Positions 15,822 through 32,134 of a DNA stretch of 34,044 nucleotides are shown piece by piece. The stretch is from NCBI GenBank assembly GCA_027365345.1, contig DAHXNO010000092.1, forward strand, positions 1 through 34,044, in the 5' to 3' direction. This stretch comes from Granulicella sp. (lineage in GTDB: Bacteria; Acidobacteriota; Terriglobia; Terriglobales; Acidobacteriaceae). Numbering within the stretch: the first letter of the stretch is position 1; each line of letters opens with the position of its first letter. The position numbers and the translations under genes are program-made. Under the pieces are notes generated by a model. That model had not been told where the DNA came from. It saw only the letters and a program-made list of their open reading frames with translations, and ran no database searches.

Positions 15822-16892
15822 CCGGGCCGCCTGCGATGCTTGAGTGATGGGCCGATAGGAGTTGTCCTCCGCCTGGGTGCGGCTTGAGGTTCAGTGTATC
15901 GCTGCGAGGGCAGCACGTACGGCGCTTCCACGTGCTACAGCTCTTTTGCTGCTGTAGCTGGATGCTGGAGATGACTGTGTGGCGGCGAAGCGGTGAGCAT
16001 GCGAGGGCTGGGCGATGTTCCCGGCGACGACGATATTCGGCATGACGCCTTGCGTCAGCGGCAGTACAATTAGCTCGAACCCGGACTTAAAAGAGGAGGT
16101 TGTTCCAGCTCGAACGGCTTTAGTTTCGAGGATGGCAGATTTCCGGTGGCTGGGTTTCAGTGGCTGGGTCCGACCGGTTGGCCTGGGTGCTCCGCGGAGT
16201 GGACATGAGATGGGTCCGCGTCCTGGCCTTGGGCGTTGACTTGCACACGCGTCCGCAGGAAGCAGATTGCAGAACTGCTCATCTGCTTATCTGCAATAAA
16301 AAATTGGGATTGGACGCGGGAAGATCGGTTCGAGATGCTGGTGACAGGAGAGGCTGCACGGCAGGAGGACCATGGGTGTGGAAGAGAGAGGCTGAGCGAC
16401 TGCCTAGCGGATCCGGTCTGTTTTCGCCTGGCGAGCAGCAGACCTTGGTGGTTCCGTTGCTGTTGTTCGGTCGGCTTGTCTCTCCTGTGTTTCCGCGTGT
16501 GGGTACAACCGTCTGGACTCCGTACACAGCGCCCGCTGCCCCCCCCGGGCGCAGGGGCGACGCGGAGGTGGCTGTGGCCCGTTGTTGGAGGGTGGATGAC
16601 CGCATGAGAGGAGTCCAGCATTTGCCTGCGATCCATTCTGCGCGGGTTGGATCTGCCAAGCGCGCCGCATTGGTCGGGCGGATTCTGACGGATCTGTTGG
16701 GCCTGATCGGCTCCGTTGAGCCAGTTCCGTTGACCGCAGCAGCGTTCTGGAGTGGGTACGAGTGAGATCTTTGGGGCAGAGCGCGCTACGACTGCGCCCG
16801 GGGCGAAGGAGAAGATAGAGGGTTGCGTGCGGGCGTTTACCCGAGTTGCCGGTGGCTTGCACGCGGGTTGGAGCTGGAAGAGGAGGAATCGC
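15822..16892. other. Long region without a convincing gene
   Basis: About 1.07 kb between the divergent barrel-protein and oxidase genes. Open frames here (for example plus 16160-16765) show no recognisable domain and atypical composition. Visible items: two overlapping inverted repeats at 15912-15958, an AGAGGAGG at 16090-16097 not followed by a useful start codon, an AT-rich patch around 16290-16310, and a purine-rich leader just before 16893. It probably holds the promoters of both flanking genes and perhaps decayed coding DNA. Confidence 0.4.
15912..15958. repeat. Two mutually exclusive inverted repeats
   Basis: AGCACGT (15912-15918) pairs with ACGTGCT (15930-15936), and GCTACAGC (15934-15941) pairs with GCTGTAGC (15951-15958). 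The stems share bases 15934-15936, so both cannot be complete at once. They lie about 90-140 bp upstream of the barrel-protein gene, in its leader or promoter. Confidence 0.4.
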
Positions 16893-18470
16893 ATGAATTA
16901 TCCCGTTTGGGACGTCAGCTTTGGCGCCGGTCTGCTGATCGCCATGGTGGCTACGCTGCATGTGTTTGTCTCTCACTTTGCGGTGGGTGGCGGGTTGTTT
17001 CTGGTATTGACGGAGCACCGCGCACGGCGCAGGGGCGACACCGAGCTCCTTGCCTGGCTGAAGCGCCACACGCGGTTTTTTGTGCTGGTGACGGTGGTGT
17101 TTGGCGCGATCAGTGGGGTGGGCATCTGGTTCACGATTGGGCTGATCAGCCCGACGGCGACCAGCGATCTGATCCATATCTTCGTCTGGGGCTGGGCGAT
17201 TGAGTGGATCTTCTTCTGCCTGGAGATCGCCTCTGCGCTGCTCTATTACTACGGCTGGGACAAGCTGAGCCCCGCCCGCCATATGGAGTTCGGCTGGATT
17301 TATTTCATCAGCTCCTATCTGAGCCTGGTGATCATCAATGGCATTATCACCTTTATGCTGACCTCTGGCGCGTGGCCGGAGAACCACAACTTCTGGAGGG
17401 GATTTTTCAATCCCACCTATCTTCCTTCGCTGGTGTTCCGCACGGCGATCTGCCTGGCGCTGGCCGGGGTGTATGCGCTGATCACGGCCAGCGTGCAGAA
17501 AGACAAGGCGCTGCGAGCGCGCATTGTGCGCTGGAGCGCGCTGTGGACCATCCCCTCGCTTGCCGTGCTGCCGGCGTGCGGCTGGTGGTATATCCGTTCC
17601 ATTCCTCCTTACGTGTGGCAGAACGCCCGGGGCATGATGCCCACGGCGAGCCGTTTCGCCGGGTTTGCCTGGGTGCTGCTGATTGTGGTGTTTGTGCTGG
17701 CGCTGCTCACGCTGGTGCGGCCGGCGAAGATTCACCTGGCCTTTAGCCTGCTGGTGGCCGTGGTCGCCTTTGGCGCGATGGCCTCCTTCGAGTTTGTGCG
17801 AGAGTCCATCCGGCTGCCCTATGTGATCTCCAACTACCTGTACGCCAACTCACTCTACGCGGCGACGATACCGGGGGATGGCGGCTTCAGCCTGGCTGAG
17901 GTGCAGGCGGCGGGGATTCTGCCCAGTGCGAAGTGGGTGAGCATCCACAGCATAACGCCGACGAACCAGCTTGCGGCCGGGCAACAGATCTTCCGCGTCT
18001 CCTGCGAGAGCTGCCATACGGAGAACTCCTACCGCGGACTCGCCCCGGCCATTGTGCAGCACCAGTGGGATCTTGCGAAGATCACGGTGTTGATTGGTGG
18101 TATTAATTTTATGCACAACGGCGTGATGCCGCCCTTCGCCGGGAGCAGCGAGGAGAGGGCCGCGCTGGCCGCTTACCTGCACTCCCTGGCTCCGGTGTCA
18201 ACGCAGGCTACGGAATCGATCACCGATGGCAAGGCGGTGTTTCAGCATAACTGCATGATGTGCCACGAGGTGAGCGCTACCGACCCGCTGTTTGTGAATC
18301 TGGACAAAGATCCGAAGACCGCGGCCGATTCGCTGAAGGATCTTACCACGATCTTTCCGCTTATGCCCGACCTGAAGCTCACCGCGGAGCAGCGCACCAA
18401 CCTGGTTGGGTGGATCAACACCCAGCGCCGCGGGATGAACTTCTCCGCTGCCGCGCAAGGAGGCAATTAA
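16893..18470 (+). CDS. Cytochrome bd-like oxidase subunit I with two c-type haem motifs
   Basis: A 525-residue membrane protein. Residues 1-340 hold about nine hydrophobic segments; the N-terminal part has the CydA-like layout with conserved histidines (TLHVFVSHFAVGGGLFL, then KRHTRFFVLVTVVFG, IFVWGWAIEWIFFCLEIAS). The C-terminal part is a cytochrome c region with two haem-c sites, CESCH at 371-375 and CMMCH at 454-458. I recall that such fusions are known in the bd oxygen-reductase superfamily (the OR-C group), which lack the usual quinol site and may take electrons from haem c. Electron donor and reaction are inferred. The start at ATG 16893 has AGGAGG six bases upstream. One base separates its stop from the next start. 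Confidence 0.78.
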   Translation: MNYPVWDVSFGAGLLIAMVATLHVFVSHFAVGGGLFLVLTEHRARRRGDTELLAWLKRHTRFFVLVTVVFGAISGVGIWFTIGLISPTATSDLIHIFVWGWAIEWIFFCLEIASALLYYYGWDKLSPARHMEFGWIYFISSYLSLVIINGIITFMLTSGAWPENHNFWRGFFNPTYLPSLVFRTAICLALAGVYALITASVQKDKALRARIVRWSALWTIPSLAVLPACGWWYIRSIPPYVWQNARGMMPTASRFAGFAWVLLIVVFVLALLTLVRPAKIHLAFSLLVAVVAFGAMASFEFVRESIRLPYVISNYLYANSLYAATIPGDGGFSLAEVQAAGILPSAKWVSIHSITPTNQLAAGQQIFRVSCESCHTENSYRGLAPAIVQHQWDLAKITVLIGGINFMHNGVMPPFAGSSEERAALAAYLHSLAPVSTQATESITDGKAVFQHNCMMCHEVSATDPLFVNLDKDPKTAADSLKDLTTIFPLMPDLKLTAEQRTNLVGWINTQRRGMNFSAAAQGGN

Positions 18471-18471
18471 G

Positions 18472-19620
18472 ATGTTGCAGACCAATCTGGTTCCCAGTCT
18501 GGATCCGAATCCGCTACCCGCGCCCTACTGGCTGCTGAAGGCGCTGCTGATCGCGACCTTCACGTTCCACATCGTGGCGATGAATCTGATGCTTGGCGGC
18601 GGGGTGGTGGCGCTGCTGACCCGCTGGCGAGCGAAGGACCGCGAGGTGAGCAAGCGGATGTTCCATGACATTGCGAAGAAGATTCCGATTCTGCTGCCGG
18701 CCACGATCAGTCTGGGCATTGCGCCGCTGCTGTTTGTGCAGGTGCTGTACGGGCAGTTCTTTTACACCTCCTCTATCCTGATGGCGTGGCCGTGGTTCCT
18801 GGTTCTGGTGCTGCTGACGGTTGCGTACTACGGGTTCTACTACGTCTCCTACGAGAGCGGCCAAGACACGCGCCGGGCGGGCGCGGTGATGTACCTGAGC
18901 GTGCTGCTGGTGTTCCTGATCGGCTTTCTGTTCACGAACAACATCACCCTGAGCCAGACGCCGGCCCGCTGGGGCGCAAAGTACTTTGCGAGCGCCGGCG
19001 GATGGCATCTGAATCTCTCTGAGCCCACGCTGATCCCGCGCTATCTGCACTTTTTTGTCGCCGCGGTGGCCGTGGGCGGGCTGTTGCTGGTGTTTATGGC
19101 CTGGGCGAACTGGAAGCGCGATCGAGTTTACGCCGGCCAACTGCTCTCCTTTGGGGGAAAGACCTTTCTGTACGCCACGATGACCCAGTTTGTGGTGGGC
19201 ATCGTGTTTCTGTTCACGCTGCCGCTGGATAAGCGCATGTTGTTTATGGGCTCCGATCCGGTGGCTACAGGTCTGTTTCTGGTGGGCGTCGTGGGCGGGC
19301 TTGCCTCCATCTTCCTGATGTCGCATGCGGTGCAGCAGGAGAATATTCGTCTGGCCGGCATTGGGGTTCCGGCCATCACGGCCTGCGTGATCGTGGCCAT
19401 GAGCATCATGCGCGACATCCTCCGCGACGCCTACCTGAAGCCCTACTACGACCCCAGCAAGATACCCGTGCAGACGCAGACCTCTGTGCTGGCTCTGTTT
19501 CTAGGCCTGTTTGTCTGCGGCGTTGTGGTGTGGGTTGTGATGCTGTGGCGCTACGGCATGTTTGACGGCAAGGCGGCAGCCGCGCCGAAGAGTCCGGCCG
19601 GCGGCGCGCAGCCTGAGTAG
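18472..19620 (+). CDS. Cytochrome bd-like oxidase, second membrane subunit
   Basis: A 382-residue protein with roughly nine hydrophobic segments, translated from ATG 18472 one base after the preceding stop, with AAGGAGG at 18457-18463. This spacing indicates a two-gene operon and equimolar partners. Its first helices (LLIATFTFHIVAMNLMLGGG) resemble the first helix of the partner, including a His and a Gly-rich turn, so the two proteins look like distant relatives, as CydA and CydA-like subunits can be. It has no CxxCH motif and ends in an Ala/Pro-rich tail. No assembly gene (cydC, cydD, cydX) is visible nearby. Role: membrane partner in the oxidase; it is not a recognisable CydB. Confidence 0.7.
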   Translation: MLQTNLVPSLDPNPLPAPYWLLKALLIATFTFHIVAMNLMLGGGVVALLTRWRAKDREVSKRMFHDIAKKIPILLPATISLGIAPLLFVQVLYGQFFYTSSILMAWPWFLVLVLLTVAYYGFYYVSYESGQDTRRAGAVMYLSVLLVFLIGFLFTNNITLSQTPARWGAKYFASAGGWHLNLSEPTLIPRYLHFFVAAVAVGGLLLVFMAWANWKRDRVYAGQLLSFGGKTFLYATMTQFVVGIVFLFTLPLDKRMLFMGSDPVATGLFLVGVVGGLASIFLMSHAVQQENIRLAGIGVPAITACVIVAMSIMRDILRDAYLKPYYDPSKIPVQTQTSVLALFLGLFVCGVVVWVVMLWRYGMFDGKAAAAPKSPAGGAQPE

Positions 19621-19858
19621 CAAGCCGACGACTGCCGGACTGCGGGCTTTTGCGTTGCTGCGGGCTTTTGCGGCTCAGCCCTGGGGAGTGGAAAGGTTCG
19701 ATGGGGGGTGGTTCAGGTCCGTGGGAGAGCACGCTGGGATGGATGCTCCTGCGGAAGACGCCTGGGTGTACGGGCAGTGGAGGGAGGAGCCGCAGCCCTG
19801 TTTTCCGCGACAGTCCCAGTTCCGACGCAATTGCCGGAGTGCAAACAGCCGCCAACGG

Positions 19859-20746
19859 ATGGACGATGGGGAGATGACGGATACTGGTAAGGAGCAAGAC
19901 AGGCTTGCGCCCATGGTAGCGATGCGAGACGAGAAGACGAGAGGCGAGCGCGGCTTCAAGCGGGTGCTGGGAGTGACCCCCGCAGCGTTTGCCCGGGAGC
20001 AGCGCAGGGAACGGTTCCGCAGCGGGGTTCGAAGGCCCAGGATGACGGTGACCGAGGCGGTGTACGAGGCCGGTTTTGGCTCGCCGAGCCGGCTGTATGA
20101 GGGAGTGGGAGCGTCGCTGGGCATGTCGCCGAGCGCGATGAAGGCGGGCGGCGCGGGCGAGACGATTCATTACAGCACCACGGAGAGTCCGCTGGGGCGG
20201 TTGCTGGTTGCGGCTACGGCGCGTGGGCTGTGCGCGGTGCTGTTTGCGGAGGGCGCGGAGGGCGGCGCGGGTGGGATGGGATCGCCGGACGCTGAGCTGA
20301 TCTTCGAGCTGCGGCAGCGCTTTCCGCAGGCTGCGCTGCGCGCGGCCACGGCCGGGGGCGAGGCGCTGCCTGGTGAGGCGGTGCAGTGGGTGCTCTCACA
20401 TTTGAGCGAACATCCCTCCGCCAGTGCGCTTCCCTTCCACATTCGCGCTACGGCGTTTCAGCAGCGTGTCTGGCAGGCGTTGATGCGAATTCCACGGGGA
20501 GAGACCCGGACCTACGCTGAGATTGCCGCGACGATTGGGTCGCCGCGGTCCGTCCGCGCGGTGGGCGCTGCCTGCGGAGCGAATCCGCTGGCGGTGGTGA
20601 TTCCCTGCCATCGAGTGGTTGGGGCGAAGGGAGGGCTCACTGGCTATCGCTGGGGCGTGGAGCGGAAGAAGCGGCTGCTGGAGCTGGAAGCAGAGGCCGG
20701 CAAGTTGGCGGTTGCAGTCGGCGCGCCGGTTCTGCCGTCCAGGTAG
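19859..20746 (+). CDS. Ada-like methylated-DNA--protein-cysteine methyltransferase lacking the N-terminal domain
   Basis: DNA repair protein that removes methyl groups from O6-methylguanine by transfer to its own Cys. From about residue 40 it shows the second half of an AraC-type helix-turn-helix (FKRVLGVTPAAFAREQRRER, MTVTEAVYEAGFGSPSRLYE, LGMSPSAMKAGG), then the Ada linker (IHYSTTESPLGRLLVAAT) and the transferase domain with AFQQRVWQAL, IPRGETRTYAEIA, RAVGAACGANPLAV and the acceptor motif PCHRV at Cys250. The methylphosphotriester-sensing domain with four zinc cysteines that precedes this in Ada is absent, and the upstream 240 bp does not encode it in any frame. The start is uncertain (ATG 19859, 19874 or 19913; none with a good Shine-Dalgarno). 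Likely still active in repair, unlikely to sense methylation like Ada. Confidence 0.82.
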   Translation: MDDGEMTDTGKEQDRLAPMVAMRDEKTRGERGFKRVLGVTPAAFAREQRRERFRSGVRRPRMTVTEAVYEAGFGSPSRLYEGVGASLGMSPSAMKAGGAGETIHYSTTESPLGRLLVAATARGLCAVLFAEGAEGGAGGMGSPDAELIFELRQRFPQAALRAATAGGEALPGEAVQWVLSHLSEHPSASALPFHIRATAFQQRVWQALMRIPRGETRTYAEIAATIGSPRSVRAVGAACGANPLAVVIPCHRVVGAKGGLTGYRWGVERKKRLLELEAEAGKLAVAVGAPVLPSR

Positions 20747-23252: not shown

Positions 23253-24476
23253 ATGAATGCTGCCGCGCTGACCAAAATGGTTGCGGAAGATGCCGCGTTG
23301 CGCCGCCGCCAACGCTTGCAACCGGTGGGCGGCAAGGGGGACAAGATTTTCCCACCTACCTATCCAGGCGAGGGCCGGAACAATCCTCCTCCGCGCCATG
23401 TCTTTGAGCGCCGCCGGTTGGGTGACAAGGAAATATGGTGTGTGCTGGTTGATAGTGTGCAGTCCCAAGCCAACCGGCTTGAAGAGAGCCTGCTCGGAAT
23501 TATTCGGGAAAAGTCTGTTTGCATTCCACACGTGGTGGTGGATTTCAGCGGAAAGGGCCTCGACGGCATCAGCACCATCACCTCGCTCGAAGCTCCGCAC
23601 CGCGTGTATGACGCGATTTTCCGCGACAGCCTTCTGGATGGACAGCCCTTTATGAAAAGCACTCTGGGCGAGCGCCTAGCAAAAGCTAGCAATGCCGATG
23701 CCTCGGCGTTGCTGGAGATTTCGCCCACGGCGCTACTCTTCGGTTCCTGGTACTCCACGGGAGGAGGCGGTGGACTCGGGGCGAAGTTCGCTCGTTGCCT
23801 GGTTGCCGAGATTGTCGCTGCGGATGTACCGGTCGACTTAATTGACCAGAGAAATGGTGAAGTTGAATCGCGCACCGCTGGACGACGCACTGGCAGCCGC
23901 ATCGATCCTCTTGGTGTACTGAGTAAAGTAGAAGTCTACAAAGGTGACAATGGAGAATGGGATGTAACTGAGGCGGGAGCCGGCCCAAAGGCGAAGAGGG
24001 TACGGCCTTCGGAGATTAACCACGGCAACATTGCACCGTCCGTCCAGCCGCTCGGAATCACCTGCGACTACCTCGAACACATGTTCGTGCTGAGCTTTGC
24101 TGCCCTACGCCGACTGCGCTTCGGATCACGTGAAAAGGATGCGGCAGGGCGAGCCTTGCTTGCGGCACTCGGACTGATGGCTATGGCGGAACAGGACGCG
24201 CAGGGGTACGCGCTTCGTTCGCGGTGCGACCTCGTCTGCGATGGAAAGGCCCCTCTGGAACTGGTTCACTCAGATGGGACTTCTGCGAATATCTCCATCG
24301 ACGTTGCGGAAGTGCGCAACCTTTACCGCGCCACCTTTACTGCCGCAAAAGATTCAGGATTCAAGTTTCAGGAAGCACCCCTTTCGCTCACGCCTCAGAA
24401 CAAGCTGGTGGAGATTGTGCGTCAGAGCCAGAATCTGGCCCTTACTGGTAAGGGTGAAGGTACCGAAGAAGTGTAG
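23253..24476 (+). CDS. csb1: Type I-G CRISPR Cas7 backbone protein Csb1
   Basis: A 407-residue RAMP protein of the GSU0053/Csb1 family. In type I-G complexes several copies form the crRNA-binding backbone of Cascade. Recognised by IFPPTYPGEG near the start, a strand with WCVLVDSVQSQANRLEE, TSLEAPHRVYDAIFRDS, the glycine-rich SPTALLFGSWYSTGGGGGLG followed by AKFARCLVAEIV, and the late region with LRSRCDLVCDGKAPLEL. ATG 23253 starts the homologous region. It is first in the cas operon; csb2 follows after 11 bp. Codon usage is less GC-biased than in the housekeeping genes to the left, consistent with transfer. Confidence 0.94.
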   Translation: MNAAALTKMVAEDAALRRRQRLQPVGGKGDKIFPPTYPGEGRNNPPPRHVFERRRLGDKEIWCVLVDSVQSQANRLEESLLGIIREKSVCIPHVVVDFSGKGLDGISTITSLEAPHRVYDAIFRDSLLDGQPFMKSTLGERLAKASNADASALLEISPTALLFGSWYSTGGGGGLGAKFARCLVAEIVAADVPVDLIDQRNGEVESRTAGRRTGSRIDPLGVLSKVEVYKGDNGEWDVTEAGAGPKAKRVRPSEINHGNIAPSVQPLGITCDYLEHMFVLSFAALRRLRFGSREKDAAGRALLAALGLMAMAEQDAQGYALRSRCDLVCDGKAPLELVHSDGTSANISIDVAEVRNLYRATFTAAKDSGFKFQEAPLSLTPQNKLVEIVRQSQNLALTGKGEGTEEV

Positions 24477-24487
24477 GGGCGTAAACA

Positions 24488-25927
24488 ATGACCCTGGTTC
24501 TGGAGATCGAGTACCTGACTGATGTTGTCTTCGCAGCCCGCGGCCCGGAGAGCAATGTCCCCGATTGGCCCCCGCAGCCGGACCGCATCTTTTCCGCACT
24601 TGTGGCAACGTGGGGAGCGCGGGGAGGTAATAATTCCGAAGCAGAGGCGCTGAAGTGGTTAGAGCAGCAATCTGTGCCAAGAATTGCCGCGTCGCGAGCG
24701 GAGCCTCGTACCGCTCCCGTGAGTTTCGTGCCGCCCAATGACAAAGCCATACTGCCCCATCTACGCGGACGTCAACCTAGGCGCTTTCCTGCCTCCCGAC
24801 CTGATGCCCCAGTCGTATTTCTGTATTGGGAGGGTATCGCTCCGGTGCCGCGCGTGTTTGAAGCTCTGAGTGTCCTGGCGACCGACACATCGTATGTGGG
24901 ACACTCCGCAAGCCTGACCCGCTGTCGCTTCCTATGCTCGGAAGCGCCTCCACCAGCACAATCGCTGTTGCCAAAAAGGAGAATCTACGGTGGAAGGTTC
25001 GATGAACTACGCGAGAGTTACAAACGATTCGTCCAATCAGGCGGTAAAAACGGCCGCCCTCTTCTGGGAGAGCAGGTTGTGACCGCCGTACGTTCCACAA
25101 GCGAAGCGGCCTATAGCTGCTTTGATTCGAAATGGCTGGTAATGGAGCATACGGACGGTGAAATACCCGATGTGCGCGCCACAGCCTTGATTGCCAAGGA
25201 AATTCGAGACGCTCTTCTCTCCGGCTACAGGCAGTGCGGTATGGGAGACCGTATTCCTGCTGTCGTCAGCGGGCATAATCCAGATGGTAGTCCGACGCGG
25301 GAAGCGCACCTAGCAATTGTGCCCTTAACCTTTGCGGGCTTCCGCTATGGGGATGGGCATTTGCTAGGCTTTGCCCTGGTACCGCCGCGAGATAGAGGTC
25401 TCCTGGAGGATGGAGATTTTCTGCGAGCGATGATCAAAATCGCACCGGTTTCCAAGCAGACGGATCGGAGAGCGATTCGCCTGTTCGATTCCAGTCTTGA
25501 GTTGTCTCCCACCTTTGAATCGGATAAGCGATCTTTGGACTCAGCCCTCTACACGAATCCTTCCATGGTATTCGCAACCGTAACCCCCATCGTGCTCGAT
25601 CGCCACCTTAAGGAAAGAGGGACCAAGAGACAGGAAGAGGTCATCGAACAAATCAAGTCCGCTTGTGCCAACGCCGGGTTTCCTGAACCGGATGCGGTTG
25701 TTCCCGACAAGCATTCGGCTATCGAGGGCGCGATCTCGGCGCAGCCCTCGGGCAACGCGCCGGACTGGATGCGCTGGCGGCTGCCCTCCTCGCTGAACAA
25801 CCGCTTTCTGACGCATGCAGTCATTCGCTTTCTCGCGCCGGTGAAAGGGCCGGTGATCCTGGGGGCGGGGCGGTTTGTGGGCTTGGGACTTTGCCGTCCT
25901 ATTGTAGATGCGGAGGACATGGCATGA
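24488..25927 (+). CDS. csb2: Type I-G CRISPR protein Csb2 (Cas5-Cas6 fusion)
   Basis: A 479-residue protein of the GSU0054/Csb2 family. In type I-G it processes pre-crRNA and stays on the crRNA 3' end; it combines Cas5-like and Cas6-like parts. The N-terminal Cas5-like part shows DWPPQPDRIFSALVATWG; the middle has SYVGHSASLTRCRF. The C-terminal Cas6-like part includes SGHNPDGSPTREAHLAIVPL and FRYGDGHLLGFALVPPR, whose His and Arg residues are candidates for RNA cleavage. The ATG at 24488 is preceded by AGGGG. Its TGA overlaps the cas3 ATG as ATGA. The array repeats carry a strong palindrome, a fitting substrate for its cleavage. Confidence 0.93.
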   Translation: MTLVLEIEYLTDVVFAARGPESNVPDWPPQPDRIFSALVATWGARGGNNSEAEALKWLEQQSVPRIAASRAEPRTAPVSFVPPNDKAILPHLRGRQPRRFPASRPDAPVVFLYWEGIAPVPRVFEALSVLATDTSYVGHSASLTRCRFLCSEAPPPAQSLLPKRRIYGGRFDELRESYKRFVQSGGKNGRPLLGEQVVTAVRSTSEAAYSCFDSKWLVMEHTDGEIPDVRATALIAKEIRDALLSGYRQCGMGDRIPAVVSGHNPDGSPTREAHLAIVPLTFAGFRYGDGHLLGFALVPPRDRGLLEDGDFLRAMIKIAPVSKQTDRRAIRLFDSSLELSPTFESDKRSLDSALYTNPSMVFATVTPIVLDRHLKERGTKRQEEVIEQIKSACANAGFPEPDAVVPDKHSAIEGAISAQPSGNAPDWMRWRLPSSLNNRFLTHAVIRFLAPVKGPVILGAGRFVGLGLCRPIVDAEDMA

Positions 25928-28926
25928 CTCGGGAATTGTGCGGAGAAAATTTTGCTGCGTTCTTCGAAGAGATTCATGGGTATCCACCCTTTCCCTGGCA
26001 GACGCGCCTCGCCCGAAAGTTGACCGATGAAGGCACCTGGCCCGCAGTGTTGGACCTGCCTACCGGCTCCGGCAAAACAGCGGCTTTGGATATAGCCGTA
26101 TTTCATCTTGCATTGGAAGCGGTGCGCGGGCTAGCGCGAAAGGCGCCGGTACGCATTGCCCTGGTGGTGGATCGAAGGCTCGTCGTGGACGATGCGTTTG
26201 AGCGGGCTAAAAAAATCGCGGCCGCGCTTACCAATCCCAAAGGGCCAGTCACCACCAGGGTTGCACGAAACCTCAGATTACTTGCAGGGCAGGCCGCCGA
26301 ACCTTTGCTCGCTCGCCGCCTACGCGGCGGTATTCCGCGAGAAGACGATTGGGCGCGCACACCATCCCAGCCCACGATTCTATGTTCGACCGTCGACCAA
26401 GTCGGTTCGCGTCTGTTGTTTCGCGGCTATGGGGTTTCCGACAGCATGAAGCCCGTCCACGCCGGGCTGTTTGGTTCCGATTGCCTGATCCTTCTCGATG
26501 AGGCACATCTTTCCGAGCCGTTCCGGCAAACGCTCGACTGGGTGCAGACCTACAGAGGTGAGTCCTGGCGCGAAAGTAAGGACGCCACTCCGTGGGGATT
26601 GTCGCTGCTCACCGCGACTCCAGGCGAGGAGGCGCCTGGGCGCTTCCGTCTTGCAAACGAAGATTACGCCAACCCCGTTCTTGGCCGACGCTGGAACTGT
26701 TCAAAGTCGGCACGACTGATTGAGTCGGGCAAAGCCAGGCAGAACAACGATACAGCAGACGACGAAGCGGACGAACCGAATAATATCTTGGAAAAGCAGT
26801 GCATCGATGAGTTTGTGAAGCAGGCAGAAAAAGGACTCGAAGTCCTCAAAAAGAGAAGTCTCAATCATCCGCCGGCCCTGGCCGTTGTGGTGAACCGCGT
26901 CGCGCGTGCGCGCGCTATCTTCGAGGAGCTTAGCAAAAGATCGGGTGCGGATGAGGTCGAATCCATCCTGATGATTGGTCCCTCGCGCTCGATCGAGCGT
27001 GAGGCGATTGCCAGGAGTCTCGATCCTATCAAGACAGGCAAAAACCGCGATCTCGGAAAACCGCTGCTGATCGTGTCTACCCAGTGTATTGAAGCAGGCG
27101 TGGATATCGATTTGGATGGCCTTATCACGGAAGTGGCGCCTCTCGATTCACTTCGCCAGCGCTTTGGACGGCTTAATCGCGAAGGACGCGAAATTGTTTC
27201 TTACGCCGCCATCGTCGGCAGCGGAGGCGAAGTGTATGCCAAAGACCCAGTCTATGGCGAGGCGATCGTCAATACATGGAAGTATCTGGCCGAGCATCCC
27301 GATAAGGCCGAGGACAAGAAAAAGAAACAACCGGCCGAGATTGACTTCGGCCTGGCCGCTTTTTCGAAACGCACTATTGATCCGGATTTACTTGCCCCCA
27401 AGGCAGATGCGCCCGTGCTGCTGCCCGCGCATCTCGATCTGCTGAGCCAGACCTCGCCCATTCCCACAGCCGACCCCGAAGTAGCACTCTACCTGCATGG
27501 GCCTGGCCGTACCGCCGATTCGGTTGCTGTCGTCTGGCGGAGCGATGTTGCCCCGGCATTTTCAGAAGGCACATTCCAGCTTATGTTGCTTGTGCCGCCG
27601 CGTGCTGCTGAGGCCATTGAGCTTCCCGTCTGGGTTGTACGCCGCTGGTTAACGGAAGAACGCCCTGAAATGGCTGGCCTGGCTGACGTTCCCGTCCTTG
27701 AGCCGAAGCCGGTAGAGAAAGAAAGTCCATGCAGAAGCAAACAGGAACGAAGAGTCTTCCGCTGGACCGGCGAAGAGGATAGCTCCGCATGGATTTCTCC
27801 CAAAGGAATTCGCCCCGGTGATACGGTCGTTGCCCCGGCAGCTTATGGGGGCGTCGACAGATACGGCTGGAACCCCGATGATCGAGAGCCCGCCGAAGAC
27901 GTTGCTACTCTAGCTGCTGAACCTTATGAAGGGCGCAAGTTCGCAGTACGTGTTGCCCCAGGACTGCTGAACTTTGCCGACGATGACTCAGCACTCGCAC
28001 GGGCTATCGCCGCTGCAGACACCCGGCAATGGAAGGATCTCCGCGAAGCGGTGCTGAGTATTAAGCTGCCACCGAAGATTGCCGAGAATTTGAAAAAACT
28101 GGATAAAGCTAAAGGTACCAGGAACAATGTCGATACATATACGGAGATTTACGGCCGTAAAGATGATTGTCCACGCGGCATTGTCTTCTTTGCTCCCCGG
28201 GGAATCGATAACAAACAGAATGAAAACGACTCGCTCAACTCAACCGAGGATGACATTGCCGGGTCGCTATCCAGCTCCCCGGTGCCGCTCCAGCAACACT
28301 GCATCTGCGTAGAGAAGATGGCAGAAAAACTTTCTCGGCTAGCGGGTCTCTCAGAGGATCGGATAAAGGACGTGAAGCTGGCGGGATATTTGCATGATGC
28401 AGGCAAGGCTGATGCACGTTTTCAAGCATGGCTAGCCAATGGCGATCCGCTGGGTCCAGACCCCGATCGCCCCGATGAGGTTCTGGCGAAATCGGCGCGG
28501 CGTCTGCCTCGCAATGCCAGAGAACGTTCCGGCTTGCCCGCAAACTGGCGGCATGAGGCCCTGTCTGTGCGGCTAGCTCCTCATATGCCTTGCTTTGTTG
28601 ATGGAGCGAAAGACCCCGAATTGGTCCTGTGGCTGGTGGGTACTCATCATGGTTATGGCCGTCCATTCTTTCCTCATGCCGACCCGGAAGACGCGCAAAC
28701 CCGCAACCATCTCCCCAATGTGCTTGGCATTCCGCAAATACTTCCGCCGGGGTACGGCCCCCAGTCACTTGCCTTTGACTGGAACGGACTAGATTGGCCC
28801 AGCCTGTATGAACGTCTCAAGGCCCGCTATGGAGTTTGGGAACTCGCTCGTATGGAAGCTGTCCTACGCCTGGCCGATCACCGCGCTTCGGAACAGGCAG
28901 AACAGGAAGAAAGGATCGCTTCATGA
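25924..28926 (+). CDS. cas3: Cas3 helicase-nuclease, type I-G arrangement (C-terminal HD)
   Basis: A 1000-residue helicase-nuclease that unwinds and degrades target DNA after Cascade binding. The helicase comes first: Walker A LPTGSGKT (GSGKT at 48-52), DEAH box at 192-195, SLLTATPGEE (motif III-like), STQCIEAGVDIDLDGLIT and motif VI QRFGRLNREGR. The HD nuclease lies at the C-terminus: AGYLHDAGKADARFQ with His824-Asp825, and a later GTHHGYGRPFF pair of histidines. An HD domain after the helicase is typical of types I-G/I-U and opposite to most Cas3 proteins. The ATG at 25924 overlaps the csb2 stop and is preferred over the in-frame ATG 25891. Its own TGA overlaps the next ATG. Confidence 0.97.
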   Translation: MTRELCGENFAAFFEEIHGYPPFPWQTRLARKLTDEGTWPAVLDLPTGSGKTAALDIAVFHLALEAVRGLARKAPVRIALVVDRRLVVDDAFERAKKIAAALTNPKGPVTTRVARNLRLLAGQAAEPLLARRLRGGIPREDDWARTPSQPTILCSTVDQVGSRLLFRGYGVSDSMKPVHAGLFGSDCLILLDEAHLSEPFRQTLDWVQTYRGESWRESKDATPWGLSLLTATPGEEAPGRFRLANEDYANPVLGRRWNCSKSARLIESGKARQNNDTADDEADEPNNILEKQCIDEFVKQAEKGLEVLKKRSLNHPPALAVVVNRVARARAIFEELSKRSGADEVESILMIGPSRSIEREAIARSLDPIKTGKNRDLGKPLLIVSTQCIEAGVDIDLDGLITEVAPLDSLRQRFGRLNREGREIVSYAAIVGSGGEVYAKDPVYGEAIVNTWKYLAEHPDKAEDKKKKQPAEIDFGLAAFSKRTIDPDLLAPKADAPVLLPAHLDLLSQTSPIPTADPEVALYLHGPGRTADSVAVVWRSDVAPAFSEGTFQLMLLVPPRAAEAIELPVWVVRRWLTEERPEMAGLADVPVLEPKPVEKESPCRSKQERRVFRWTGEEDSSAWISPKGIRPGDTVVAPAAYGGVDRYGWNPDDREPAEDVATLAAEPYEGRKFAVRVAPGLLNFADDDSALARAIAAADTRQWKDLREAVLSIKLPPKIAENLKKLDKAKGTRNNVDTYTEIYGRKDDCPRGIVFFAPRGIDNKQNENDSLNSTEDDIAGSLSSSPVPLQQHCICVEKMAEKLSRLAGLSEDRIKDVKLAGYLHDAGKADARFQAWLANGDPLGPDPDRPDEVLAKSARRLPRNARERSGLPANWRHEALSVRLAPHMPCFVDGAKDPELVLWLVGTHHGYGRPFFPHADPEDAQTRNHLPNVLGIPQILPPGYGPQSLAFDWNGLDWPSLYERLKARYGVWELARMEAVLRLADHRASEQAEQEERIAS

Positions 28927-29927
28927 GCGAACCCCTGGGTCGCCATCGCCTCACCGGACTCGAGCCGGACAACCTGCTCGCCTTTCTGGCCCTTCTCGGG
29001 CTGCTGCGGTCATTAGAAGCAGCACCTGAAGGTAAGAAACTTTTCCCTCGCGCCTGCTGGAAATTCGACGATCCACCTCTGCGTCCAGTGCTTTGTTTCA
29101 AGACTCCGACAACTCGTGAAGATGTGGCTGAGATTGCTGCCCAGGGACTTGCTTCTCTGGCAGTCAGCCATGATTTTGGAGAACGGAACCAGAACGATTT
29201 GAATTATCCGCGCAAAGAAGCTCACGCAATGATGGAGGAAGCAGCCAGGGCTGCCACGGTTTCCAACCGGATTCGGGCCGACCTGTTGGCATCGCTCATG
29301 AATGACGCGGCCACCAAAGAAGCTAAGGATCCCGATGCAGCGCCCATAGCGCCCACGCCGTTGTGCCTCTTGTTTGGCCAGGGGCATCAGCATTTTCTGG
29401 ATCGGTTCAGGAATGTTTCTTCAGAGCCGGCCCCTCCACCGCGCAGAAAAGGAAAGGCTGCCGTAACTCTTTCCGCCGCAGAGTGCCTCTCTGAAGCACT
29501 GTTTGCCCCGTGGCATCGCGCGGACCCAACTTTTTCTTTTCGCTGGGACCCGGAGGAAGACGTGCGCTACGCACTGATGGCCGGCGATCCCGCCGCCCCA
29601 ACCTACAAACTTGGTACCCAACACGGCGCGAACCGCCTCGCATCCGTGGGCCTCGCGGCGCTCACATTGGTTCCGGAAACGCGGGCGGGACGGATACGAC
29701 CTTTTATTCTTGGAGGCTCTTTCAGTCAAGATGGATTTTCTTTCGCTTGGCCCATCTGGAAGGAACCTGCAACGCTTTCAGCCATTCGAGCCATGCTTGG
29801 CCATCCTGACCTGCGCAAGATGAACGGATTGGCCCATCTGGGTGTGGATCGCGTCCTGACAGCTAATCGAATCTCAGTGGGCAAGTTCATGAACTTCACG
29901 AGAGCGAAATTAAGAAATGAGACATAG
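28923..29927 (+). CDS. Type I-G Cas8g/Csx17-like large-subunit protein, short form
   Basis: A 334-residue protein in the position of the type I-G large subunit (Cas8g), which I recall bridging the complex and recruiting Cas3. The N-terminus RHRLTGLEPDNLLAFLALLG matches the Csx17 pattern of L-x-G, then PL-x-x-YL-x-ALG. Later, ADPTFSFRWDPEEDVRYALM and TQHGANRLASVGLAAL fit the same family. It is about half the size of the long Csx17 proteins I know, so it may be a short subfamily (sometimes annotated as a Cas3-extension family protein). Start ATG 28923 overlaps the cas3 stop; the frame also opens at 28836 but inside cas3. No small subunit gene is present. Family membership is recognised by eye only. 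Confidence 0.72.
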   Translation: MSEPLGRHRLTGLEPDNLLAFLALLGLLRSLEAAPEGKKLFPRACWKFDDPPLRPVLCFKTPTTREDVAEIAAQGLASLAVSHDFGERNQNDLNYPRKEAHAMMEEAARAATVSNRIRADLLASLMNDAATKEAKDPDAAPIAPTPLCLLFGQGHQHFLDRFRNVSSEPAPPPRRKGKAAVTLSAAECLSEALFAPWHRADPTFSFRWDPEEDVRYALMAGDPAAPTYKLGTQHGANRLASVGLAALTLVPETRAGRIRPFILGGSFSQDGFSFAWPIWKEPATLSAIRAMLGHPDLRKMNGLAHLGVDRVLTANRISVGKFMNFTRAKLRNET

Positions 29928-29981
29928 CTTATATGTGACGTGGCCATTTGCCAAACCACCTGAGCAAGGAGTTATTGTGCC

Positions 29982-30272
29982 ATGCGCAGTTCTTACCTGG
30001 TCTGTTACGACATTTCGGATGATAAGCGATTGCGGCAGGTCTTCAAGCTGATGCGTGGGTTCGGAGACCATCTTCAGTTCTCTGTGTTTGAATGCCAACT
30101 CACGGCATCCGATCTGGTACGTTGCCGCGAAGCCTTGCGCAAGATCATTCACCACAATGAAGACCAAGTTCTCTTTGTCAACCTCGGGCCTTCAGAAGGA
30201 CGCGGGGACCGAGTTATCACCGCTTTGGGAAAAGCGTACACAAATCTGGATAGTCCCTGCATCGTCGTCTGA
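29982..30272 (+). CDS. cas2: CRISPR adaptation protein Cas2
   Basis: A 96-residue ferredoxin-fold protein that joins Cas1 in the spacer-integration complex. The first strand YLVCYDISDDKRLRQVFKLM carries the conserved Asp (YDI) of the family, followed by FGDHLQFSVFECQL, the usual second core strand, and VLFVNLGPSEGRG. Its length is standard. It starts 54 bp after the Cas8g-like gene and precedes the cas4-cas1 fusion by 29 bp. Confidence 0.96.
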   Translation: MRSSYLVCYDISDDKRLRQVFKLMRGFGDHLQFSVFECQLTASDLVRCREALRKIIHHNEDQVLFVNLGPSEGRGDRVITALGKAYTNLDSPCIVV

Positions 30273-30301
30273 TTTGTATTGCTGCCGAAAGGAGTTCTTC
30301 T

Positions 30302-32134
30302 GTGTCCGCTGAGGCTCAACGTATCCAACCCGTTCGCGTGGATGAGGACATGGTCCATCATCTGAAGCTGAAATTGCCCGACCTTTTGCCTGCCCGCATG
30401 TTGAATGAGTTCGTTTACTGCCCAAGGCTTTTCTTCTACGAATGGGTAGAGGGAGTTTTCGAGAGCAGTTCCGATACGTTGGATGGCCAAGCCAAACACA
30501 CACGGGTCGATTCCGGTCCCAGCGCCATGCCCTTGGCTGAAGACATGAATAGCGACGGCATCCACTCGCGCTCGGTCACTCTATCGAGCGAGCGTGTCGG
30601 CCTGACTGCCAAACTTGACCTTATCGAGAGCGATGCAAACGCAGAGAATGAAAAGTCTGTGCGTCCGGTGGATTACAAACGCGGCAAACCGCGCGATGTC
30701 GATGGAGTGCCAACTCCCTGGCCGTCGGACCGCGTTCAGATTGCGGCGCAAGCTCTCGTGCTGCGCGACAACGGGTATTCCTGCGAGGAAGGCACCCTTT
30801 ACTATGCCGCTACCAAGCAGCGTGTGAGGATCATAATTGACGACTCACTCATCGCCGAAACTGAAGAACTTATTGCACAAGCGCGAAAGGCGGCAGTGAG
30901 TGACCAGATTCCTGAACCTCTCGTAGATAGCCCTAAATGTCCACGTTGTTCTCTGGTCGGAATCTGCCTCCCCGACGAGACCAACGCGCTGCGGGCGCGA
31001 GCACTGAGATTTGAAGAACGCTGCCCGGTACAGTTTTCTCTCTTTGAAACCGTTGAAGAAGCAGCGGACGCGGAAGTACGCCAATTGGTGGCTGCGCGCG
31101 ACGATCTCAGGCCTCTATATCTGAACTCCCAGGGATTCCGGGTGGGGAAATCGGGCCAGGTGATTCAAGTAAAAGATGGCGACAGCCTCAAGCAGGAAGT
31201 GCGCCTCGGCGAAGTGTCTCAGATCAACCTATTCGGGAACGTGCAGCTTTCGACACAAGCTATCCAGTCGTTTTGCTCAGCAGAGGTTCCGGTTTGTTAC
31301 TTTTCGCAAGGAGGCTGGTTCTATGGCATCACAAACGGGCTCAATGCAAAAAATGTGTTTCTGCGCCATCGCCAGTTCATCTCTGCGGGATATGAACCTA
31401 CGGCGCTGAGCATTGCGCGAAAGCTCACTGTGGGAAAGATCCGCAACCAGCGTACCCTTTTGCAACGCAACCACATTGAAGCACCAGAAACGGCCTTGCG
31501 CCAGTTGAAGTTGCTAGCTGAAAAGGCCGAGTGTGCGTCGGCAATCGAATCATTGCTGGGAATTGAAGGCTCTGCTGCGCGGGTCTACTTTAGCGAGTTC
31601 GCCGGAATGCTGAAAGCTGGCGAAGGTAGCGACAACGCACACCGCGGCGCACCAACAGAGTTCTCTTTCGACTTCACCCAACGGAACAGGCGTCCACCGC
31701 GCGACCCGGTGAATACGTTGTTATCGCTGGCATACAGCATGCTGGTAAAAGACCTGACGATTACATGCTATTCGCTGGGGTTCGATCCATACTGGGGCTT
31801 CTATCATCAACCGCGTTTTGGGCGCCCGGCGCTGGCGCTCGATCTAATGGAGCCCTTTAGACCGCTGATCGCCGACTCGGTGGTATTAACGGCGATCAAT
31901 ACGGGCATGGTGACAACTGCGGACTTTATTCAGTCCGGGCCGTCTGTCGCACTGAAACCAAATGGCCGCAAAGGCTTCTTCCGCGCCTACGAATTGCGCA
32001 TGGACACACTTGTGACGCATCCAATGTTCGATTATCGTGTCAGCTATCGTCGATTGTTGGAAATTCAAGCGCGCCTCTTAGCCCGTTTCCTGAACGGTGA
32101 GATCGATGACTACCCGGTATTCGTCACTCGCTGA
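30302..32134 (+). CDS. cas4-cas1: Cas4-Cas1 fusion protein
   Basis: A 610-residue fusion of a Cas4 nuclease (residues 1 to about 260) and the Cas1 integrase (about 270 to 610). Cas4 part: LNEFVYCPRLFF with cluster Cys40, the nuclease motif VDYKRGK (Asp124, Lys126), and CPRCSLVGIC with Cys214, 217 and 223; these four Cys bind the Fe-S cluster. Cas1 part: begins PLYLNSQGF, with Glu423 in GIEGSAARVYFSE, His503 in GFYHQPRFGRP and Glu518 in DLMEPFRP as metal ligands. The fusion trims and integrates prespacers and is a usual companion of type I-G systems. The GTG start at 30302 is supported by AAAGGAG at 30288-30294. Confidence 0.97.
   Translation: MSAEAQRIQPVRVDEDMVHHLKLKLPDLLPARMLNEFVYCPRLFFYEWVEGVFESSSDTLDGQAKHTRVDSGPSAMPLAEDMNSDGIHSRSVTLSSERVGLTAKLDLIESDANAENEKSVRPVDYKRGKPRDVDGVPTPWPSDRVQIAAQALVLRDNGYSCEEGTLYYAATKQRVRIIIDDSLIAETEELIAQARKAAVSDQIPEPLVDSPKCPRCSLVGICLPDETNALRARALRFEERCPVQFSLFETVEEAADAEVRQLVAARDDLRPLYLNSQGFRVGKSGQVIQVKDGDSLKQEVRLGEVSQINLFGNVQLSTQAIQSFCSAEVPVCYFSQGGWFYGITNGLNAKNVFLRHRQFISAGYEPTALSIARKLTVGKIRNQRTLLQRNHIEAPETALRQLKLLAEKAECASAIESLLGIEGSAARVYFSEFAGMLKAGEGSDNAHRGAPTEFSFDFTQRNRRPPRDPVNTLLSLAYSMLVKDLTITCYSLGFDPYWGFYHQPRFGRPALALDLMEPFRPLIADSVVLTAINTGMVTTADFIQSGPSVALKPNGRKGFFRAYELRMDTLVTHPMFDYRVSYRRLLEIQARLLARFLNGEIDDYPVFVTR

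Follow-up and report, generated by a model that had tools for sequence, protein, structure and literature searches.

A probable cytochrome c-linked oxygen reductase of the bd superfamily, formed by two CydA paralogues, in Granulicella sp.

The DNA considered here is a stretch of 34,044 nucleotides from Granulicella sp. (Acidobacteriota, Acidobacteriaceae), contig DAHXNO010000092.1 of assembly GCA_027365345.1. The whole stretch is termed the window, and its source is a draft genome of 4.2 Mb in 208 contigs. It carries a gene pair, termed A and B, in which A encodes a CydA-like membrane protein fused to two cytochrome c domains and B encodes a second membrane protein of CydA type (Table 1). The stop codon of A (TAA, 18468–18470) and the start codon of B (ATG, 18472) are one base apart. 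An initial annotation, made from the sequence alone, had described this spacing, a CydA-like part in A with CxxCH motifs at residues 371–375 and 454–458, and in B a related membrane protein that is not a typical CydB. All of these features are borne out by the motif, Pfam and fold comparisons that follow.

The membrane part of A resembles CydA in both sequence and predicted fold. Pfam Cyt_bd_oxida_I (PF01654) matches residues 15–199 above its cut-off (E 1.1e-8), and a profile comparison with 28 canonical CydA sequences (hhalign) gives E 2.1e-11 across residues 9–179. AlphaFold was run on an alignment of 40 A proteins and on one of 37 B proteins; the mean predicted local distance difference test (pLDDT) score is 86.2 for A and 90.4 for B. 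In the A model, eight long helices precede the haem c tail, and residues 8–321 match the CydA chain 7oy2_C with a Z score of 32.3, a root-mean-square deviation (rmsd) of 3.2 and 313 aligned residues, and 7ose_A and 6rx4_A are tied with it. The three best fold rows are all CydA chains (Z 31.9–32.3, rmsd 2.8–3.2, 309–313 aligned). The best 20 rows in Foldseek are likewise all bd oxidase chains, with subunit I leading. To our knowledge, the solved bd oxidases among the fold matches are all quinol oxidases.

Residues of the oxygen site have counterparts in A. H23, E104, E111 and H130 are placed by hhalign on H19, E99, E107 and H126 of Escherichia coli CydA, which are established haem ligands. In 5doq_A, the AE-VGRQPW motif supplies the counterparts of E304, R307 and P309 (its E, R and P) through the second segment of a profile match, weak when taken alone; in E. 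coli this motif contains E445 and R448. The segment MNYPVWD and residues H23, E104, E111, E304, R307, C371, C374 and H375 are identical in 58/58 A proteins, the window included, so that the pattern is more than chance. This comparison comprised 63 rows minus the fragments or frameshifted copies L027, L057, L060, L061 and L062. A wider set of 79 rows was formed from the 92 census loci described below minus L077, L083, the OR-N-like L104–L106, and L016, L019, L021, L027, L057, L060, L061 and L062, and here E304 and R307 are present in 79/79. By its CydA sequence and fold and by its high-spin site, with counterparts of H19, E99, E107 and E445, A belongs with the bd superfamily.

Features that mark the canonical quinol oxidases (qOR) are missing from A. 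The linker between helices 6 and 7 comprises 15 residues in the model (236–250), where CydA has the long periplasmic Q loop with K252/E257, and the loop has no counterpart. The position aligned with H186, the haem b558 ligand of subunit I, is F182, as placed through the A–B and B–CydA alignments. This column is hydrophobic or small, and never histidine, in the 23 sequences inspected, and the adjacent R183 is invariant in the 79 rows. A counterpart of the b558 ligand M393 could not be placed, as helix 7 has no confident sequence alignment. The N-terminus of CydA is periplasmic. With this orientation assumed, the loops of A carry 15 lysine and arginine residues inside and 6 outside, with the haem c tail counted up to its 30th residue, and those of B carry 18 inside and 10 outside. 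A periplasmic N-terminus followed by eight helices would place the haem c tail of A on the periplasmic side of the membrane, which is where c-type haems become attached and donors occur.

The tail consists of two cytochrome c stretches (PF13442, E 5e-18), with the motifs CESCH in the first and CMMCH in the second. Residues 356–434 match cytochrome c6 9krd_D (Z 8.1, rmsd 2.3, 75 aligned). The first CxxCH is found in 79/79 kept A rows, proteins without it having been set apart earlier as OR-N-like. M412, kept in 78/79 rows, is the likely second iron ligand of haem c 1, and M491, kept in 30/30 rows that have two CxxCH motifs, is likely to have the same role in haem c 2. A chance origin of the second motif was considered and rejected, given the two Pfam stretches and the same alignment place in those 30 rows, which were grouped by having two motifs. 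Three CxxCH motifs are found in the A proteins of L093, L094 and L095. A B-type protein at L100:3606-4925 has its own CxxCH near the C-terminus, and haem c can thus be joined to either subunit.

Protein B has no Pfam family below E 0.5. Its model has nine long helices, and CydA (subunit I) chains make up all of its ten best fold rows, each entry being represented by one chain; the best is 7ose_A (Z 31.3, rmsd 3.5, 344 aligned). In Foldseek, CydA chains occupy ranks 1–4 and second-subunit chains are listed from rank 5. A and B are paralogous (hhalign probability 96, E 1.2e-9), and B aligns with the profile of the 28 canonical CydA sequences (probability 77, E 2.1e-5). The comparison with E. coli CydB gives E 0.23 over 33 columns, but with a single sequence, and single-sequence CydA likewise gives only E 0.62. 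An identity of B with CydB was rejected on the lack of a CydB alignment, the CydA-profile alignment and the CydA chains as best folds. Both subunits are thus CydA paralogues, as in CydAA'-type proteins, and the pair lacks the CydB that forms the second subunit of canonical qOR enzymes. No Q loop is seen in B, in which the stretch between helices 6 and 7 spans about residues 250–262 of the model. The alternative complex III subunit 8k9e_C also matches A (Z 18.0, rmsd 3.7, 266 aligned) and B (Z 19.9, rmsd 3.5, 291 aligned). Matches of the two models to alternative complex III have Z 17–20, well under those to CydA (Z 30.0–32.3 for A and 27.6–31.3 for B). When polysulfide reductase is included with alternative complex III, the fold similarity of both models to the membrane subunits spans Z 15–20.

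Table 1. Positions in the window of genes A and B, their domains, conserved residues and upstream motifs
Feature	Position	Strand	Basis or conservation
AGGAGG ahead of gene A start	16881-16886	+	
Gene A: CydA-like membrane subunit with two fused cytochrome c domains, 525 amino acids (P0001)	16893..18470	+	
A residues 1-321: 8-helix CydA core	16893..17855	+	fold match
A H23, aligned to the high-spin haem ligand H19 of E. coli CydA	16959..16961	+	58/58; hhalign
A E104 and E111, aligned to E99 and E107 of E. coli CydA	17202..17225	+	58/58 each; hhalign
A E304 and R307 in RE-x-x-R-x-P, aligned with CydA AE-x-x-R-Q-P (E445/R448)	17802..17813	+	58/58 each; alignment to 5doq_A
Cytochrome c domain 1, A residues 358-434	17964..18194	+	Pfam; cytochrome c6 fold
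CxxCH of haem c 1, A residues 371-375	18003..18017	+	
Cytochrome c domain 2, A residues about 437-515	18201..18437	+	second Pfam stretch; model helices
CxxCH of haem c 2, A residues 454-458	18252..18266	+	
Shine-Dalgarno-like AGGAGG of gene B, within 3' end of gene A	18458..18463	+	
Gene B: 9-helix CydA paralogue (CydA'-like), 382 amino acids	18472..19620	+	
B H33, aligned with CydA H19	18568..18570	+	68/68 B rows
B H193, aligned with CydA H186 (haem b558 ligand)	19048..19050	+	37/37 bc-free vs 2/31 bc-linked
B M310 and D315; D315 aligns with A E304 (CydA E445)	19399..19416	+	A-B alignment

Hidden Markov models (HMMs) for A and B, and for the cytochrome b and Rieske proteins encoded nearby, were used in a census of 92 loci. 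Cytochrome b is encoded beside A in 46 loci, termed bc-linked, and a Rieske protein as well in 43, the genes being on one strand in each. L077 and L083 are re-fetches of L087 and L088 (44 loci without them), and the A protein of L085 is identical to that of L034. The commonest order is B–Rieske–cytochrome b–A (28 loci), and A–B stands behind the bc genes in six. PF00033 and PF00355 were confirmed on representatives. The quinol-site motif PEWY is the first match in 44/46 cytochrome b frames, L031 having it further on and L052 having PEWL; both Rieske cluster motifs are present in 41/43. No separate cytochrome c gene is seen between the genes in the 46 loci. The lack of such a gene between the Rieske and cytochrome b genes suggests that the fused haem c of this sister group may stand in for cytochrome c1. 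Other CxxCH frames lie within 3 kb in 8/46 loci, one of them a 274-amino-acid frame downstream of A at L083/L088, which are one locus; several loci (L077–L085 among them) have less than 3 kb of flank, and a cytochrome c gene further off is possible.

The bc-linked and bc-free forms differ in their haem c tails. All 40 kept bc-linked A rows have one CxxCH, aligned to the first motif of the window, with a gap at the second, vs two (30 rows), one (6) or three (3) in bc-free rows. No bc gene was found in the window with the cytochrome b and Rieske HMMs, and in 20 bc-free loci, the window included, at least 3 kb on both sides of the pair is without bc genes; two of the 20, L014 and L089, have the same A protein. 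The search for cytochrome b reaches far enough, since blastp with related queries recovered each of the three distant cytochrome b loci in the window's own genome. B is next to A in the bc-free census loci except L099, L005, L019, L021 and L028; in the last four the contig stops directly behind A. The proposal that the window pair is a broken or partial bc-linked form was rejected, as no bc gene was found in the 34-kb window with these HMMs and its A protein falls in a branch of 26 rows that all have two haems c.

A second difference lies in B. Histidine is found at the H193 position in 37/37 bc-free B proteins vs 2/31 bc-linked ones (L034, Geothrix, and L057), in a set of 68 rows from which B rows of 300 amino acids or less were left out; the 37 rows include two pairs identical in A (L014/L089 and L026/L090). 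M310 follows the same trend (37/37 vs 13/31). As H193 stands at the b558 position, the pattern suggests that the stand-alone form keeps a low-spin haem b in B and that the bc-linked form has mostly lost it. It represents about one evolutionary contrast, because the bc-linked forms lie on one side of a single branch (Shimodaira–Hasegawa-like approximate likelihood ratio test, SH-aLRT, 94; quick tree with long branches).

In a tree of the N-terminal core, 25 haem-c-fused, 27 canonical CydA and 4 OR-N-like proteins each occupy one side of a branch (99/98, 100/98 and 97/96). Only 25 of 80 A rows were used, canonical L126 was dropped as it has no core match, and OR-N-like L133 was not extracted. 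The deeper order is unsure since long branches meet, as the program warned. The OR-N-like label denotes resemblance in length, lack of CxxCH and likeness to the published description; after trimming, these proteins have 545–569 amino acids. L104, L106 and L134, OR-N-like proteins from Acidobacteriota, have 658–670 amino acids and no CxxCH, and CxxCH motifs occur in frames neighbouring L104 and L106. The quick tree of 80 A proteins places the window in the 26-row all-two-haem branch (SH-aLRT 100), which comprises Acidobacteria, KSB1, Calditrichota and Ignavibacteriales. On this tree the two-haem state needs four changes, at least two of them by starred branches, and two haems were thus gained or lost more than once.

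Relatives of A are found mostly in Acidobacteria and other phyla. A scan of genome contigs gave 62 loci, with the closest relatives in records named Acidobacteriaceae. Among 297 Acidobacteriota genomes, 85 match the A profile at E 1e-10 or better, 65 strongly (E 1e-40 or better) and 20 only weakly, most of the latter to OR-N-like open frames. Within the window's family, three of the genomes listed match (the window's own, G007 and G171), vs at least 19 without a match, and G130, the one genome of the same genus that was sampled, lacks A; the presence of A in the family is thus patchy. In a search with the Pfam CydA family, where 34/60 genomes have any match, canonical and fused forms coexist in several genomes.

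Six distinct loci among the 26 relatives scanned carry a Crp/Fnr-type palindrome, TGTGA-N6-TCACA, at −117 to −137 relative to A; it is exact in L003 and L006 and has one mismatch in L008, L009, L014 (the same as L089) and L021. L012 has a one-mismatch copy at −284. The background for 0 or 1 mismatch is 4/882 other 300-base tiles of the same loci. The 300 bases upstream of A in the window contain nothing better than 4 mismatches, and for this reason the palindrome is not used as evidence. Fnr and NsrR-like patterns were searched for and not found.

Canonical CydAB of E. coli has the subunit I fold and the high-spin haem site in common with A. It differs in that A has no Q loop and no H186 counterpart, has a haem c tail after helix 8 in place of a ninth helix, and is paired with a CydA-like protein and not with CydB. 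In cbb3 oxidases, two haem c domains in one chain, CcoP, feed the oxidase; the core of A, in contrast, is of bd type and not haem-copper, and the match to TIGR00782 is weak (33 bits vs a cut-off of 180). The families qOR, OR-C and OR-N were reportedly defined by Murali, Gennis and Hemp in 2021. OR-C reportedly comprises CydA with fused haem c, and A fits this definition; A also lies on a branch apart from qOR and OR-N (99/98), the OR-N rows being labelled by resemblance.

OR-C appears beside qOR and OR-N as a bd-superfamily family in passages of citing papers, PMC10839748 among them. The OR-N type CydAA' proteins of nitrite oxidisers resemble A–B, according to extracts of three papers, in having two CydA paralogues, no Q loop and a supposed use of cytochrome c (PMC10839748; PMC12342949; PMC3578206). 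One of these extracts adds that experimental confirmation of cytochrome c use by OR-N is still lacking (PMC10839748). The bd-like proteins of PMC3578206 have, in the excerpted text, no haem c and about 14 helices, whereas A has two CxxCH motifs and 8 membrane helices. Comparable, too, are cydA genes fused to multiple c-type cytochromes, with no associated cydB, in over 50 delta-proteobacterial genomes, which were discarded from the analysis of Degli Esposti et al. 2015 (PMC5322542, partial text). As in A, CydA is joined to c-type cytochromes and no cydB adjoins; the partial text names no partner, ligands or neighbours, whereas here the CydA-like partner B is identified. The initial annotation called such fusions poorly characterised, a fair statement given that the 2015 paper, as far as its excerpts go, set them aside (PMC5322542). 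The A–B pair is of a kind noticed before but hardly tested.

It is probable that A–B represents a two-subunit oxygen reductase of the bd superfamily that receives electrons from cytochrome c and belongs to the little-studied haem-c-fused (OR-C) part. The haem content, electron donor, order of haems and O2 as the substrate are deduced from the genes, domains, predicted folds, conserved residues, tree and neighbourhoods. The enzyme would be built from two CydA paralogues without CydB, and the membrane core of A would house the oxygen site with its two high-spin haems. The two C-terminal haem c domains would face the periplasm, where their donor would be either a c-type cytochrome or the c-type component of one of the bc-type complexes of the cell. 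Electrons would then move between the two haems c before reaching the membrane haems, possibly via a low-spin haem b on H193 of B, and O2 would be reduced to water with cytoplasmic protons moving along the E104/E111 path of A. Three cytochrome b loci are present in the window's own genome, accompanied by Rieske-like frames and with CxxCH in the same or neighbouring frames; possible c-type donors are plentiful.

The choice of haem c over quinol as donor, which the initial annotation had offered, is favoured by two observations. A lacks both a Q loop and the b558 histidine, and in the sister group the genes for a bc-type module of quinol oxidation accompany an A protein with a single haem c. Its alternative of another substrate is possible, though nothing observed speaks for it. 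Of the outcomes that it said would count against an oxidase of this kind, loss of the ligand histidines did not occur at the high-spin haems, whose ligand counterparts remain, and an unrelated membrane cytochrome family did not emerge, the fold being that of CydA.

Several points weigh against a cytochrome c:O2 oxidase. The conserved residues fit other high-spin-haem chemistry as well, such as reduction of nitric oxide (NO) or peroxide, and a quinol site unlike the Q loop is possible. In the 79-row set, one two-CxxCH row deviates at each of H23, E104 and E111. The match of B H193 to H186 comes from a profile alignment that is modest, with no second axial ligand established, and the models contain neither haems nor the complex. 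The cell already has a canonical CydA and two haem-copper oxidases, a third haem-copper match having stops and falling below the cut-off, and the same-genus genome sampled does without A. With no bc gene in the window and no dedicated cytochrome c gene noted beside A–B, the donor of the pair is a guess.

If A–B were instead a quinol:O2 oxidase, quinol would bind at a site unlike the Q loop, for example in B near H193, and the haem c domains would be side relays or stores. Haem b558 is the quinol-side haem of canonical bd enzymes, and the histidine kept at its position in bc-free B proteins speaks for such a role; but neither A nor B has a Q loop, the first CxxCH is present in every kept A row (the CxxCH-free proteins having been set apart as OR-N-like), and the sister group brings its own bc module, so that a quinol oxidase seems unlikely. 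The same architecture might also serve detoxification, with NO or peroxide in place of O2 reduced at the high-spin haem pair via cytochrome c. Canonical bd enzymes are said to join in NO detoxification, and catalase activity figures in a reference title, in passages of PMC10839748. A stress or oxygen signal would agree with the palindrome ahead of A in the six relatives, which the window lacks, and the cell has other oxidases. Against this stand the conserved counterparts of the O2 site and the absence of any NO-related gene named among the window frames scanned; a detoxifying enzyme is considered quite unlikely. It is highly improbable that A–B oxidises quinol and reduces cytochrome c without oxygen chemistry, in the manner of alternative complex III. 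Both models do match alternative complex III subunits (8k9e_C), and such a role is discussed for the bd-like proteins of nitrite oxidisers in the extract of PMC3578206, but the CydA fold matches A and B far better, and the conserved counterparts of high-spin haem ligands would be needless for a pure electron relay.

With a cytochrome c:O2 oxidase as the preferred reading of A–B, it can be proposed, tentatively and with some doubt, that haem-c-fused bd oxidases have two wirings, a quinol-oxidising bc–bd complex and a stand-alone cytochrome c:O2 oxidase. In the bc–bd complex, electrons would pass from quinol to the Rieske protein, the fused haem c and the oxygen site within one assembly. In the form found in the window, B would hold the low-spin haem b lost in the bc–bd form, and the extra haem c would widen the choice of donor. 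No account of a bc–bd gene cluster was met in a literature search of listings and the opening lines of abstracts, and passages of PMC7618691, PMC13053071 and PMC10715153 had no bearing on one; the search did not extend to Murali et al. 2021, and absence from print is not claimed.

Other genes of the window include a single open frame at 19562–20746 with an AraC-type helix-turn-helix and an O6-methylguanine DNA methyltransferase domain (Ada-like). CRISPR-Cas genes at 23253–32134 encode GSU0053 and GSU0054 family proteins, Cas3 and a Cas4-Cas1 fusion.

The bc-linked sister group and the H193 pattern go beyond the initial annotation and are the parts of most interest, and they make the question of the electron donor testable. 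Supply of a bd enzyme by cytochrome c, or its union with a bc complex, would, if true, change the energy that a copper-free oxidase of bd fold can conserve. With a bc complex coupled to it, the enzyme would be expected to surpass bd quinol oxidases in the energy conserved per electron. A cytochrome c-fed or bc-joined bd enzyme would also matter for the respiration of Acidobacteria, Planctomycetes and further lineages in which these genes occur.

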